From assembly GCF_010730955.1 (NCBI RefSeq), contig NZ_AP022577.1:1178001-1242000 (forward strand): a stretch of 64,000 nucleotides of DNA, given 5' to 3'. Both the position numbers and the translations under genes were made by a program. This document shows positions 41,477 through 45,445 of this stretch, in pieces. The DNA comes from Mycolicibacterium aubagnense (GTDB taxonomy: Bacteria > Actinomycetota > Actinomycetes > Mycobacteriales > Mycobacteriaceae). The number at the start of each line of letters is the position of its first letter. Position 1 is the first letter of the stretch. The notes below the pieces were generated by a model. That model saw only the letters and a program-made list of their open reading frames with translations, was not told the DNA's origin and made no database searches.

Positions 41477-42958
41477 ATGGCGACCATCAGCACCCCCCGC
41501 TACCTGCTCGATCAGGCCTGGCGCCGGCTCAAGCCGACGCCGGTCACCGTGCCCGGAATGGGGATCGTCGAACAGCGACTTCGGGCCAAGCAATGGAATG
41601 AATTCGTGTTCGCCGAGCCGCCGGCAGGCAGCGGCCTCAAGGCGATCATGGGCGACTCGGGTCTACCGGTCATCGGCCACCTGATCGAGACCTTCCGGGG
41701 CGGCCCTGACTACATCCTGGAGCAGTACCGCAAACACGGTCCGCTGTATTTCGCCGATTCACCCGCGCTGTCGGCCGTGATGGCGGTCGGACCGGACGCC
41801 ACCCAGGCCGTCTTCTCCAACCGCAACAAGGACTTTTCTCAGCGGGCATGGGATCCGGTCATCGGCCCGTTCTTCGAAGGTGGGTTGATGCTGCTCGATT
41901 TCGACGAGCACATGTTCCACCGCCGCATCATGCAAGAGGCGTTCACTCGCACCAAGCTGTCCGGCTACGTCTCGCACATCGACTCGGTGGCCACCTCGGT
42001 GCTGGCCAAGGACTGGGTTGCCAACGACTCCCGGTTCCTGTTCCACCCCTCGGTCAAGGAGCTGACCCTGGACATCGCCGCGGAGGTCTTCATGGGCATC
42101 CCGGCAGGAACCGACCACAAGCTGGTCACCACCATCAACCAGGCCTTCACCACCACCACCCGGGCCGGCAATGCCATCGTCCGGACCTCGGTACCGCCGC
42201 TGACCTGGTGGCGCGGCATTCAGGCCCGCAAGACGCTGGTCGACTACTTCTCCCGTTCGATCGCAGAGAAGCGCCGCAGCGAGAGCACCGACATGTTCAG
42301 CGTGCTGTGTCACGCCCAGGACGAGGACGGCGGGAGCTTCACCGACGACCAGATCGTCAGCCACATGATCTTCCTCATGATGGCCGCTCACGACACCTCG
42401 ACGTCGACCATGACCACCATGGCCTATCACCTGGCCGCCAACCCCGAGTGGCAGGACAAGCTGCGGGCGGATTCGGCCCGCATCGGCGATGGGCCGCTGG
42501 ACATCGAAGCGCTGGAGAAGCTCGAGACCTACGACCTGGTGATCAACGAAGCGCTGCGGATGATGACGCCGCTGCCGTTCAACTTCCGGCGCGCCGTGCG
42601 GGACACCGACCTGTTGGGCTACTTCATTCCGGCCGGCACAGACGTGGTCACCTGGCCGTCGGTCAACCACCGACTCCCCGAGTTGTGGACAGACCCGGAA
42701 AAGTTCGACCCGGACCGTTTCGCCGAGCCACGCAACGAACACAAGAGACACCGGTACGCGTTCGCACCGTTCGGCGGCGGTGCGCACAAGTGCATCGGCA
42801 TGGTGTTCGGTCAGCTCGAGATCAAGACCGTGATGCACCGGCTGCTGCGCCGCTACCGGCTGGAGTTGCCGCACCCCGGTTACCAGCCCTGGTACGACTA
42901 CGGCGGCATGCCGGTACCCGTGGACGGCATGCCGATCGTCTTGCGACCACTCACCTAG
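41477..42958 (+). CDS. cyp136: Cytochrome P450, CYP136 type
   Basis: 493 residues from ATG 41477; AGGAG lies at 41466-41470. I-helix oxygen-binding motif MAAHDTSTSTM, K-helix ExxR in NEALRMM, and heme-Cys loop FAPFGGGAHKCIG. Longer than most bacterial P450s. The order TetR-cyp136 agrees with Rv3058c-Rv3059. The redox partners are not encoded nearby; the substrate is probably a sterol, lipid or terpene, by analogy only. Confidence 0.92.
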   Translation: MATISTPRYLLDQAWRRLKPTPVTVPGMGIVEQRLRAKQWNEFVFAEPPAGSGLKAIMGDSGLPVIGHLIETFRGGPDYILEQYRKHGPLYFADSPALSAVMAVGPDATQAVFSNRNKDFSQRAWDPVIGPFFEGGLMLLDFDEHMFHRRIMQEAFTRTKLSGYVSHIDSVATSVLAKDWVANDSRFLFHPSVKELTLDIAAEVFMGIPAGTDHKLVTTINQAFTTTTRAGNAIVRTSVPPLTWWRGIQARKTLVDYFSRSIAEKRRSESTDMFSVLCHAQDEDGGSFTDDQIVSHMIFLMMAAHDTSTSTMTTMAYHLAANPEWQDKLRADSARIGDGPLDIEALEKLETYDLVINEALRMMTPLPFNFRRAVRDTDLLGYFIPAGTDVVTWPSVNHRLPELWTDPEKFDPDRFAEPRNEHKRHRYAFAPFGGGAHKCIGMVFGQLEIKTVMHRLLRRYRLELPHPGYQPWYDYGGMPVPVDGMPIVLRPLT

Positions 42959-42967
42959 GACGCCGAG

Positions 42968-43016
42968 AGGCCAGTTGCCGCACGATTTGTTCGTAAACCT
43001 GTGCGGCAGCCGGCCT
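42968..43016. terminator. Bidirectional hairpin terminator
   Basis: AGGCC and TGCCGCAC pair with GTGCGGCA and GGCCT around a 17-base loop. It sits between convergent cyp136 (ending 42958) and the LeuA-domain gene (ending 43025). Confidence 0.65.
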
Positions 43017-43024
43017 TTCAGCGC

Positions 43025-43507
43025 TCACGCGTGCAGCCGGTTGGCGCAGGCGATCATCGCCCGCAGCGCTGACTGGACCGGGTCTCGCGCCCAGCCCATG
43101 GCCCACTCCGAGCAGACGCCGTCGGTGCCGTGGATGAACGTCGCGATTCCGCCGCCGACGGCCGGCAGTTGATGGAACTTGATCATCTCGACGGCCATGC
43201 CACGCTCGTGCAGCATGGCGGTGAGGGCGGCGACGGGGCCTGTCGCCGCTGCGGTGGAGGTTGCGATGCGGTCGCCGACGGCGATGCTGGCCCGGTACCG
43301 CCGGACGGCAGTGACGCCACGGCGGCTGCCGTCGTCGCCCGCGGTGCCCCAGCTGCCCAGACGGATGGGCCCACGTTGCTGCCCGTAGTGGTCGATGAAG
43401 GTGTCGTGGGACATCGTTTCTGCGTGTTCACGCAGGTCACGAGGCACGGGACGGTCAAACAGATCCGCGAAGCGCGAGGTGGTGGAGATGGCGGTGGAGG
43501 TGAACAT
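43025..43507 (-). CDS. Stand-alone LeuA allosteric (LeuA_dimer-type) domain protein
   Basis: 160 residues from ATG 43507. No catalytic TIM barrel is present. Residues about 70-158 align by eye with the C-terminal leucine-binding domain of 2-isopropylmalate synthase: TGPVAALTAMLHERGMAVEM, then FHQLPAVGGGIATFIHG and a Trp-Ala segment ending SALRAMIACANRL. The preceding part (TFIDHYGQQRGPIRLGSWG) resembles the LeuA linker region. It could be a leucine sensor or modulate the real LeuA by mixed assembly; neither is shown. The gene is preceded by a leader ORF with Leu and Val codons and strong alternative hairpins, so expression probably responds to branched-chain amino acids. Confidence 0.78.
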   Translation of the reverse strand: MFTSTAISTTSRFADLFDRPVPRDLREHAETMSHDTFIDHYGQQRGPIRLGSWGTAGDDGSRRGVTAVRRYRASIAVGDRIATSTAAATGPVAALTAMLHERGMAVEMIKFHQLPAVGGGIATFIHGTDGVCSEWAMGWARDPVQSALRAMIACANRLHA

Positions 43508-43534
43508 GCGTCAGTCTTTTCTGCTCGAAAGAGG

Positions 43535-43612
43535 TGACCGACAGGTAGTAGCGTCCGACCCACAGCGAGGGGTCGGTCAGGATCAGACCCCGCTGTGGGT
43601 ACTGGCTACTAC
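43535..43612 (-). promoter_or_regulatory. Leader attenuator with alternative hairpins
   Basis: Minus-strand leader RNA. State 1 is a long stem: 43605-43612 with 43545-43552 (8 bp), 43591-43599 with 43559-43567 (9 bp) and 43586-43590 with 43570-43574. State 2 is a short stem: 43570-43576 with 43555-43561 (7 bp). A further 8-bp pairing is 43572-43579 with 43535-43542. These cannot all form at once. The upstream arm of state 1 contains leader codons GTA-GTA-GCC, so a ribosome there decides the fold. No U-run is present. Confidence 0.7.
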
Positions 43613-43627
43613 GAGCATGTGAAGCAT
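43583..43627 (-). CDS. Branched-chain amino acid leader peptide
   Basis: 14 codons reading MLHMLVVASTHSGV, then TGA. Five of 14 residues are Leu or Val, and codons CTT, GTA and GTA are rare in this GC-rich genome. The ORF is preceded by TTGACC (43660-43665), 18 bases, and TAACCT (43636-43641), with ATG 8 bases later, which suggests a leaderless start. It ends in the loop of the attenuator hairpin, 75 bases before the LeuA-domain gene. Confidence 0.7.
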   Translation of the reverse strand: MLHMLVVASTHSGV

Positions 43628-43635
43628 GGTCGCCG

Positions 43636-43665
43636 AGGTTAGTCCGCGACCCCGTCTCGGGTCAA
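43636..43665 (-). promoter_or_regulatory. Promoter of the leader/LeuA-domain gene
   Basis: -35 TTGACC at 43660-43665 and -10 TAACCT at 43636-43641, spacing 18, read on the minus strand. The -35 overlaps the stop codon of the Fic gene. Confidence 0.6.
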
Positions 43666-44462
43666 GGCGATTTCACCGCGCGGTTCAGCAGCCACAGGAA
43701 CGGCCGGTGGCTGGGGTGTCCATCGCGGTGCAGCGGCATGCTGTCCCGGGCGGCCGCATACCAGGCGGCACGGGTGACGTCGGTGAAGTCCAGTTGCCGC
43801 CCGCACCGGCCGGCGACCGCGTGCAGCAGCAGCATCCCGGTGCGCCCGTTGCCTTCCCGGAATGGGTGAATCTGGTTGTACCGGGCGTACAGCCTGGACA
43901 GTTCCCACGCCAGCCTGGCGTTGTCGTACCCGGCTCCGATGTCTGCCAATACCGTTGCCGCAAGCTCGATTTCGCCTATTGCTGCGGCGACGTCCACCTG
44001 CCAGGTGAAGGCAGAGCCCCCGCGGCGAAGGTCGACGGTGCGCAGCTTTCCGGCCCACGGGTACACGTCACCGAAGAGCTCGCCGTGCAATGCGCGGACG
44101 TCCAGGCCCGCCTCCGTCGCCCCCTGTCGAACGTGCCACAACACCATGCGGCCCGCCGTCACCTCATATTCCGCTGCCGCCAGATCCGGTCCGTCCTGAA
44201 TCCCGAAGTTGTTGCGCAGTACCGATGTGCCGGGGATCAGGTACGGCACCCGGCGCCGGAGGAGCCGGCGTCGCGTCGGCGCCGACGGGTACCGCTCGCG
44301 ACACCGCGCGAGATAGTCGCCGAACTCCATTGCCCGGGAAGCCAAGGCACCCAACTCGACGATGTGGGCGCGTTGGGGCTCCCAGCCTTCGATGCGCTGC
44401 GCGGCGAGCGTCTGCTGCACCGCGTGGTCGGCCGCGATCGCGGCCGCGGTGGACTCTCTCAT
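43662..44462 (-). CDS. Fic-domain protein with N-terminal VbhA-like inhibitory helix
   Basis: 266 residues from ATG 44462, which forms TGATG with the nucleotidyltransferase stop. Residues about 11-58 resemble the VbhA antitoxin: LAAQRIEGWEP, where the inhibitory motif [S/T]xxxE[G/N] appears as AxxxEG, with Glu at 25. The Fic core begins IPGTSVLRNNFGI and has ALHGELFGDVYPWAGKLR and the active site HPFREGNGRTGM at 199-210. The catalytic His, the Asp/Glu and first Arg are present; the second Arg of HxFx[D/E]GNGRxxR is Met. Fic proteins transfer AMP or other phosphate groups to target proteins. The missing Arg could change nucleotide use. Fusion of toxin and antitoxin-like parts is inferred. Confidence 0.85.
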   Translation of the reverse strand: MRESTAAAIAADHAVQQTLAAQRIEGWEPQRAHIVELGALASRAMEFGDYLARCRERYPSAPTRRRLLRRRVPYLIPGTSVLRNNFGIQDGPDLAAAEYEVTAGRMVLWHVRQGATEAGLDVRALHGELFGDVYPWAGKLRTVDLRRGGSAFTWQVDVAAAIGEIELAATVLADIGAGYDNARLAWELSRLYARYNQIHPFREGNGRTGMLLLHAVAGRCGRQLDFTDVTRAAWYAAARDSMPLHRDGHPSHRPFLWLLNRAVKSP

Positions 44463-45445
44463 CAGCGGAACGCCGACGTCGAGGCGAGGAAGGTCAGTTT
44501 GCGGCTGATGCCGGCCACCTCCCGCGCCGCACTGCGCAGCATGGCCCGCTCCTGCGGTGGCAGCTCCGACAAGACCACCTGATCGCCCACTGCGCGCGAC
44601 ATCCACCGAAATCTCAACATCGCGGTGAAACACTCGCGCAGGGTCGAAACATCATCGGCATCAAGCACTTTCGCGGCGCCGGCCGCGTCGAGCCGACTCG
44701 GCGTGGACAGGTCCGTAGCGCCGGCCGACAACGCCGCCCACCGCGCGATCTTCACCAGCGGATCGATCGCCGCGAATTTGAGGTCGACGGCGTCGGACTG
44801 GTTGGCCAGCATGCGCAGCCGAGAGGGGAACGTGGCCCGGAACGTGGTGGCGTCCTGCAGCAGGTACTGACGGGCCGGGTAGTGATCGCCGGCGGCGCGC
44901 ACCACCTGGGCACGTAGGAAATCTTCGGCCAGGCTCGGGTCGGCCAGATGAACAGCGCGCGAGTCGGCCAGCACGCCCGTCATCACCACGCCACGGTCCG
45001 CCCGCGGGTCGGCTGTCCAGTGTGCGATGCCGTCGGACCACGCGCCCGCCGACCGGCAGAACCTGGATCGGCTGGCCAGCACCCCGTTGGCGTCGGCACG
45101 CACCCCGCACCGTTCCAGCACGGCATGCACCACCGCCGCGGCTTCCAGCGCCTCGTCGCGCGCGGTGTAGCCGTCCAACACGATCAGCGTCTCGACGTCG
45201 GACCCGGCCACCGCCTCACCCCGGGCGACACTGCCGGAGACGAACCACGACCACGGCCGGCTGATGGGTGTCAACCGGACGGCCGCTGCGACGCCGCATC
45301 GGAGCACCGCTGACCACGCGGCCGCCACTTCGACGGCCGGCGCAGAAGCCCGTGCCGCGGCCCGCACCGCCTGCAGGCCCGCCTCGATTCCCGACCTCAG
45401 CGCGGCCTCGTGTTCCGCCGCACGGATTGCGGCGATGGCGTCCAT
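44462..45445 (-). CDS. DUF294-type nucleotidyltransferase
   Basis: 327 residues from ATG 45445. Nucleotidyltransferase fold: WFVSGSVARGEAVAGSDVE at about 67-85, giving the GS...SDxE metal-site pattern. The C-terminal part, with LKFAAIDPLVKIARWAAL, matches the DUF294_C helical domain. Length lacks the CBS and cNMP domains that many DUF294 proteins carry. Overlaps the Fic gene, so both are made together. Such enzymes transfer nucleotides to proteins or small molecules; target unknown. Confidence 0.82.
   Translation of the reverse strand: MDAIAAIRAAEHEAALRSGIEAGLQAVRAAARASAPAVEVAAAWSAVLRCGVAAAVRLTPISRPWSWFVSGSVARGEAVAGSDVETLIVLDGYTARDEALEAAAVVHAVLERCGVRADANGVLASRSRFCRSAGAWSDGIAHWTADPRADRGVVMTGVLADSRAVHLADPSLAEDFLRAQVVRAAGDHYPARQYLLQDATTFRATFPSRLRMLANQSDAVDLKFAAIDPLVKIARWAALSAGATDLSTPSRLDAAGAAKVLDADDVSTLRECFTAMLRFRWMSRAVGDQVVLSELPPQERAMLRSAAREVAGISRKLTFLASTSAFR

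Follow-up and report, generated by a model that had tools for sequence, protein, structure and literature searches.

The window analyzed here, a stretch of 64,000 nucleotides from Mycolicibacterium aubagnense (contig NZ_AP022577.1, positions 1,178,001–1,242,000), carries on its minus strand a compact unit (43665–43025) in which a promoter leads into a leader of 14 codons, then a strong hairpin and finally an open reading frame (ORF) for a protein of 160 amino acids (aa). The protein (43025–43507), assigned by profile and fold and under purifying selection, is a stand-alone version of the regulatory domain of the α-isopropylmalate synthase LeuA. To judge from the sequence comparisons below, the RNA that precedes it is almost certainly a paralogue of the LEU element found upstream of actinobacterial leuA genes and not a new kind of attenuator. 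The unit is real and widely conserved, and it joins a known type of RNA to an unusual target gene.

The promoter (43636–43665; all feature coordinates are for the minus strand) consists of a TTGACC −35 hexamer (43665–43660) and a TAACCT −10 hexamer (43641–43636) with an 18-base spacer. The leader ORF, MLHMLVVASTHSGV followed by TGA, spans 43583–43627 and its stop codon lies at 43585–43583. Because the leader ATG (43627) is found 8 bases past the −10 hexamer, transcription is expected to begin at or near this codon and the leader is probably leaderless. Tandem valine codons GTA GTA occupy positions 43607–43612. In nine genes from the same genome, 12 of the 269 Val codons are GTA and 9 of the 299 Leu codons are CTT, so both codons used in the leader are rare. 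A Shine–Dalgarno-like AGAAAAG (43516–43522), represented by GAGAAG in many relatives, lies just ahead of the 160-aa ORF.

Folding of the leader and start region yields −53.4 kcal/mol (z = −4.7), an energy reached by none of 200 shuffled sequences. The fold contains a pairing between GUAGUAGC and GCUACUAC, a large hairpin that starts inside the leader and a GUCGGUC/GACUGAC stem beside the start codon. Based on folding and alignment, the large hairpin comprises stem a (43586–43600), within the last leader codons, and stem a′ (43558–43574). The Val codons fall in the 5′ arm of a further stem predicted by folding, with d (GTAGTAGC, 43605–43612) opposite d′ (GCTACTAC, 43545–43552). Three heptamers complete the arrangement: c (GACCGAC, 43572–43578) begins five bases past the leader stop, c′ (GTCGGTC, 43536–43542) follows d′ and e (GACTGAC, 43510–43516) lies between the Shine–Dalgarno sequence and the ATG. 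The c′ segment could pair with c, forming a LEU-type pseudoknot, or alternatively with e. The minimum-energy fold also joins CAUGC, around the second ATG of the leader (43615–43619), to GCAUG over the ORF start codon (43505–43509).

We compared this region across 110 orthologous loci, made up of 30 of the 34 matches from a first set and the best 80 of 232 from a second, with some species present in both; these loci contain 97 distinct elements. Leader, promoter and hairpin precede the gene in 109 of the 110; the last (L029), whose contig begins 28 bases before the match, is truncated and was left out of the element counts. A TTG-N17–19-TANNNT promoter lies 6–8 bases before a candidate leader start in all 109 loci, as compared with 0.37% of shuffled upstream sequences given equal freedom of starts; limiting the control to one start per locus gave 0.18%, and the loci themselves had several candidate starts. 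A search for GTAGTA, whose pattern itself required this sequence, likewise succeeded in 109 of 110 loci and failed at the truncated L029. Leader termini read VVA(S)TRSGV or differ little from it, and the distance from the first Val codon to the stop is 8 codons in 63 of the 109 loci, 9 in 45 and 7 in one. An earlier note, made from the letters of this DNA alone, had described a 14-codon leader with rare CTT and GTA codons, probably leaderless behind a TTGACC-18-TAACCT promoter, and had placed the Val codons in one arm of a hairpin with mutually exclusive pairings. The codon counts, the promoter pattern, the folding and the comparison with relatives that it proposed all bear out this description. 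Its view that Leu and Val are both control codons holds in part: Val-Val is invariant, but the codon directly before it is Leu in 74 of 109 loci and Ala (23), Val (8), Gly (2) or Phe (2) in the others.

Seliverstov et al. (2005; PMC1262725) described the LEU element, in the part of the paper accessible to us, as a pseudoknot upstream of actinobacterial leuA with three components: a leader containing Leu codons, the pseudoknot and a base stem formed between the Leu codons and the leuA Shine–Dalgarno sequence. Their survey was aimed at the regions ahead of operons for amino-acid biosynthesis and tRNA synthetases; that portion of the text mentions no stand-alone LeuA regulatory-domain gene. The same genome as the window contains two such elements before full-length synthase genes, one upstream of leuA (leader MFIARVLLLGRRDGV) and one upstream of a second leuA, or leuA2 (leader MTRVLLLGCRGGV). 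The second LeuA (577 aa, with 52% identity to the first LeuA; G000:C1:1081589-1083353, loci L034 and L146) is encoded outside the window and has counterparts at at least 77% identity in 13 of 148 genus genomes. A covariance model built from the three classes found the three elements and no other strong site in this genome (E-values of 1.4e-11 for leuA, 3.9e-11 for the window gene and 5.8e-8 for leuA2, the next being 1.39), with 150 of 9279 first-look candidates scored. An exact pattern search of the genome returned the window site alone; it missed the leuA copies because they differ from the pattern, and the covariance model recovered them. The derivation from a leuA element and the re-coding for valine go beyond the earlier note.

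In 61 relatives, which include 37 genus members, the model with stricter filters matched 49 at E ≤ 0.01. Three genus members without the stand-alone gene (G015, G029 and G032) carry a single element apiece, whose leader reads Leu-Leu-Leu; the G015 element stands close to the edge of a contig, and most of the leuA of that genome is on a different one. A fourth genome without the gene (G025, 80% complete) has two leuA1 copies (C121 and C132), each with a LEU element, and G003 (72% complete) has no element. G033 has an extra element 91 bases away from the end of one contig and its stand-alone gene at the beginning of another, a split that fits a broken assembly. An extra site in G002 (G002:C1:964385-964443; L230, ∼2060–2180, minus) is a decayed copy of the window type in which, by eye, the ATG is followed by a stop after nine codons. 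Two weak matches, in G035 (C73, E = 0.0039) and G049 (C187, E = 0.0084), were set aside because they resembled coding sequence by eye. A search of Rfam with positions 42900–44000 at E-values up to 1 returned a single microRNA model on both strands, far under its gathering score, and no LEU family.

Paired columns in an alignment of the three classes point to the same relationship. This alignment contains 58 elements: 26 of the 69 distinct core segments of the stand-alone family, the complete set of 23 distinct leuA segments, drawn from 27 of 30 loci, plus 9 of the 10 leuA2 segments. A separate family-only alignment holds 95 of the 97 distinct elements; L025 and L067, where c′ was misplaced, are absent from both alignments and retained in the counts of 97. 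In the 58 elements the a–a′ and c–c′ helices have 99.5% standard cells, compared with 35–59% when the helices are slid. Changes on both sides occur in 76 cells and in five pairs, one of these pairs being within c–c′: the pseudoknot column pair 27–59 is G-C in 32 elements and A-U in 26. Neither the number of cells changed on both sides nor the covariation score was reached by any of 500 column shuffles. Across the three paralogous classes 25 of 64 columns are invariant, and from these alignments the pseudoknot appears to be conserved.

The window element resembles that of leuA in its ..GV* leader terminus, its hairpin and its c–c′ pseudoknot, and differs from it in three respects. First, Val-Val takes the place of the run of Leu codons, roughly as far from the stop. 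Leu-Leu-Leu is found in all 27 leuA leaders identified (30 loci) and in 12 of 13 leuA2 leaders, the other having LVL; in the window family the Leu content at this position is the single codon noted above. Second, the base stem between control codons and Shine–Dalgarno sequence is absent. The Val codons pair instead with GCTACTAC, upstream of c′ and ending 37 bases before the start codon, and the start region can pair with c′. In place of the leuA stem, the window class has this conserved c′–e pairing at the start codon: the best heptamer of the start region pairs 7/7 with c′ in 85 of 97 distinct elements, as opposed to 4% of shuffled regions, and the e variants GACCGGC, GGCCGGC, GACCGAC and GACTGAC all maintain the complementarity. 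The same stem is present in the RNAalifold result and in the minimum-energy fold of the window. Third, the element is positioned upstream of a stand-alone regulatory domain and no synthase. Apart from a transposase in PMC1262725, the titles and abstract openings that we searched name neither a stand-alone LeuA regulatory domain nor any gene except leuA behind a LEU element.

The 160-aa protein of the window is assigned weakly by its sequence and clearly by its fold. Its score against PF08502 (LeuA_dimer) is 13.9 bits, under the curated cut-off of 24.9, and a PDB sequence search gave no LeuA match. Of 34 relatives, however, 32 match PF08502 at E < 0.1 (best 1.8e-6), and three of 120 listed relatives (P0115, P0118 and P0120) carry a precomputed LeuA_dimer domain. 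By structural alignment, residues 10–159 have the fold of the LeuA C-terminal regulatory domain, including the end of the linker, at 17–18% identity to Mycobacterium tuberculosis LeuA; the fold is common to the PF08502 domain of α-isopropylmalate synthase and the LiCMS regulatory domain (3f6g, 3f6h). The reading of this gene as a stand-alone LeuA-type regulatory domain in the earlier note therefore stands. In LeuA this domain is joined to a catalytic barrel, which the 160-aa protein lacks. The GP-AA motif is retained, whereas the lid loop above the leucine site is shorter and different, and for this reason leucine may not be the ligand. Public records label the family as ‘homocitrate synthase’, ‘hypothetical’ or ‘2-isopropylmalate synthase’, despite the missing barrel.

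Full-length LeuA keeps its own regulatory domain, so the stand-alone protein would be an extra one. IlvN and IlvH are detached regulatory subunits and thus provide another case where the regulatory part is encoded apart from the catalytic part, as does HisZ according to the portion of the source available; the difference is that LeuA here also retains its own domain. In a tree of regulatory domains (36 from the stand-alone family, 30 leuA, 12 leuA2 and 14 others) the stand-alone family forms one group (100/100) on a long stem of 2.29. Descent from leuA2 is not settled by this tree, given its midpoint root, unsettled bootstrap values and a warning of long branches.

The stand-alone gene is present in 263 of 297 sampled genus genomes (251 of 275 of good quality) and in none of 24 genomes from other families of the order. 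In 80 loci the downstream side is nearly constant, with homologues of the neighbors present there in the window, a P450 (77), a TetR regulator (76) and a short-chain dehydrogenase/reductase (SDR; 70), and the upstream side is variable, with a TauE-like homologue in 38. The RNA element thus stays with the gene rather than forming the tail of an upstream unit. In the window the ORF directly upstream (43662–44633) belongs to the Fic family (Pfam Fic, 47.5 bits), and the promoter −35 hexamer overlaps its stop codon; a Fic homologue is found upstream in 11 of the 80 loci.

On balance we favor the view that the locus arose by duplication and re-tuning of a leuA control unit, with a LEU-type RNA and a leaderless leader controlling a stand-alone LeuA regulatory domain. 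That the leader confers a response to branched-chain amino acids (BCAAs) is likely; that its output is translational and not transcriptional we regard as evenly balanced. In this scheme, for which we infer the direction of sensing, the ligand and the binding of LeuA, the leader would be the sensor, and its two rare GTA codons would make it respond mainly to charged tRNA-Val (plus Leu in most species). With ample valine, the ribosome would reach the stop codon and mask c, leaving c′ to pair with e and close the start region. A ribosome stalled at GTA-GTA would leave c free to capture c′ into the pseudoknot, opening the start.

Action of the protein on LeuA is a more doubtful proposition. The leucine pockets of LeuA lie at the interface of the regulatory-domain dimer, and Mycobacterium abscessus strains with feedback-blind LeuA make less valine (PMC11057210, as far as its accessible part relates). 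The 160-aa protein might join or compete with the LeuA regulatory domain and so throttle or tune LeuA, sparing 2-ketoisovalerate for valine, perhaps as a brake at the valine/leucine branch point. In its most specific form, which we put forward tentatively and consider rather unlikely as a whole, the unit would be a valine-starvation switch: a leuA element re-coded from Leu to Val would yield an extra regulatory domain that enters LeuA dimers at the leucine-sensing interface and turns LeuA down.

A serious competitor, whose chances we place somewhat short of even, is that the protein is a free-standing sensor for a small molecule, valine or some other, that acts with a partner different from LeuA or as a homodimer with a role of its own, and that its derivation from LeuA is a matter of ancestry only. 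In its favor, the residues F111-H112-Q113 are invariant across 34 aligned members where LeuA has DYYEHA, the lid loop is shortened, and the conserved P450, TetR and SDR neighbors include no leucine genes. On the other hand, the RNA element is found elsewhere before LeuA genes only, the exceptions being the decayed window-type copy in G002 and a few matches that are weak or unassigned.

As for the RNA, a number of observations weigh against the switch proposed above. At least as many pairs with changes on both sides arose in 46 of 500 column shuffles, and at least as many further pair types in 479, so that these two measures alone are not strong. Inside the family c and c′ are nearly constant and RNAalifold finds no both-side changes in 23 pairs; the covariation is mostly between paralogous classes and represents few events. 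Folding with the ribosome masked shows no switch, the stall and stop states being alike, though the start-opening pseudoknot lies outside what this method can model. The c′–e stem is favored (P > 0.5) in 82–86 of 95 elements under either mask and in 56 of 95 unmasked, and unmasked minimum-energy folds hold at least five c′–e pairs in only 25 of 97. In addition, leader-peptide mutations in Streptomyces coelicolor leuA had some effect, unlike the prediction of classical attenuation, and for leuA the 2005 authors preferred a regulatory protein or other factor to the leader peptide as sensor (PMC1262725, accessible part). LEU-type elements that bind such a factor would account for these mutants, for the strongly conserved core of the three classes and for the lack of a ribosome-dependent switch in folding. 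We nevertheless consider this unlikely for the window unit: the 109 loci retain the leader start, the spacing of the promoter and GTA GTA, and the paralogues have systematically different control codons next to a constant RNA core.

We judge it equally unlikely that the unit acts by transcription attenuation, with early termination, intrinsic or Rho-dependent, unless the ribosome stalls. By analogy, the nearest tested precedent is the ilvB1 attenuator of M. tuberculosis (PMC13236596), which, in the part of the report available, also has a short upstream ORF with L-V-V, GUA codons and a UGA stop; BCAA sensing was proposed there, and changing LVVI to AAAA abolished induction. Putative leader peptides have also been listed for Corynebacterium glutamicum (PMC4046766, accessible part). 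The unit has a leader with LVV/GUA codons like that of ilvB1, valine being a putative regulator, and a very strong hairpin beginning within the leader. The ilvB1 unit, however, has a Rho-independent terminator with a U-tract, whereas the RNA of the window family is of the leuA type and has no U-rich stretch in any of 109 loci (no six T in eight bases and no run of five T within 50 bases behind the leader). Intrinsic termination is less likely for this reason, and the conserved 3′ segment is instead able to pair with the start region. A Rho route, which has been proposed for mycobacterial cys leaders (PMC1262725, accessible part), may still apply. That the gene is a decaying, functionless leuA remnant is highly improbable: its small size, the missing barrel, the decayed element copy in G002 and its absence from 34 of 297 genus genomes would fit, but this reading is already contradicted by purifying selection on the ORF (dN/dS, the ratio of nonsynonymous to synonymous change, of 0.08–0.29 in 14 hand-picked close pairs), by the breadth of distribution, by the single tree group and by the promoter and leader kept in 109 loci.

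If the duplicated leuA control unit operates as a valine-starvation switch on LeuA, 2-ketoisovalerate would be diverted to valine, and a detached allosteric domain would exert control across pathways. The arrangement suggests that the balance between valine and leucine may be set by a route that has gone unrecognized. It also means that sister LEU-type elements exist in one cell with a common RNA core and different control codons, and therefore the question of whether the leader is the sensor, left open in 2005, is directly testable by codon swap. Finally, it offers a candidate role for a protein family of most sampled mycobacteria that is currently labeled as ‘homocitrate synthase’ or ‘hypothetical’.
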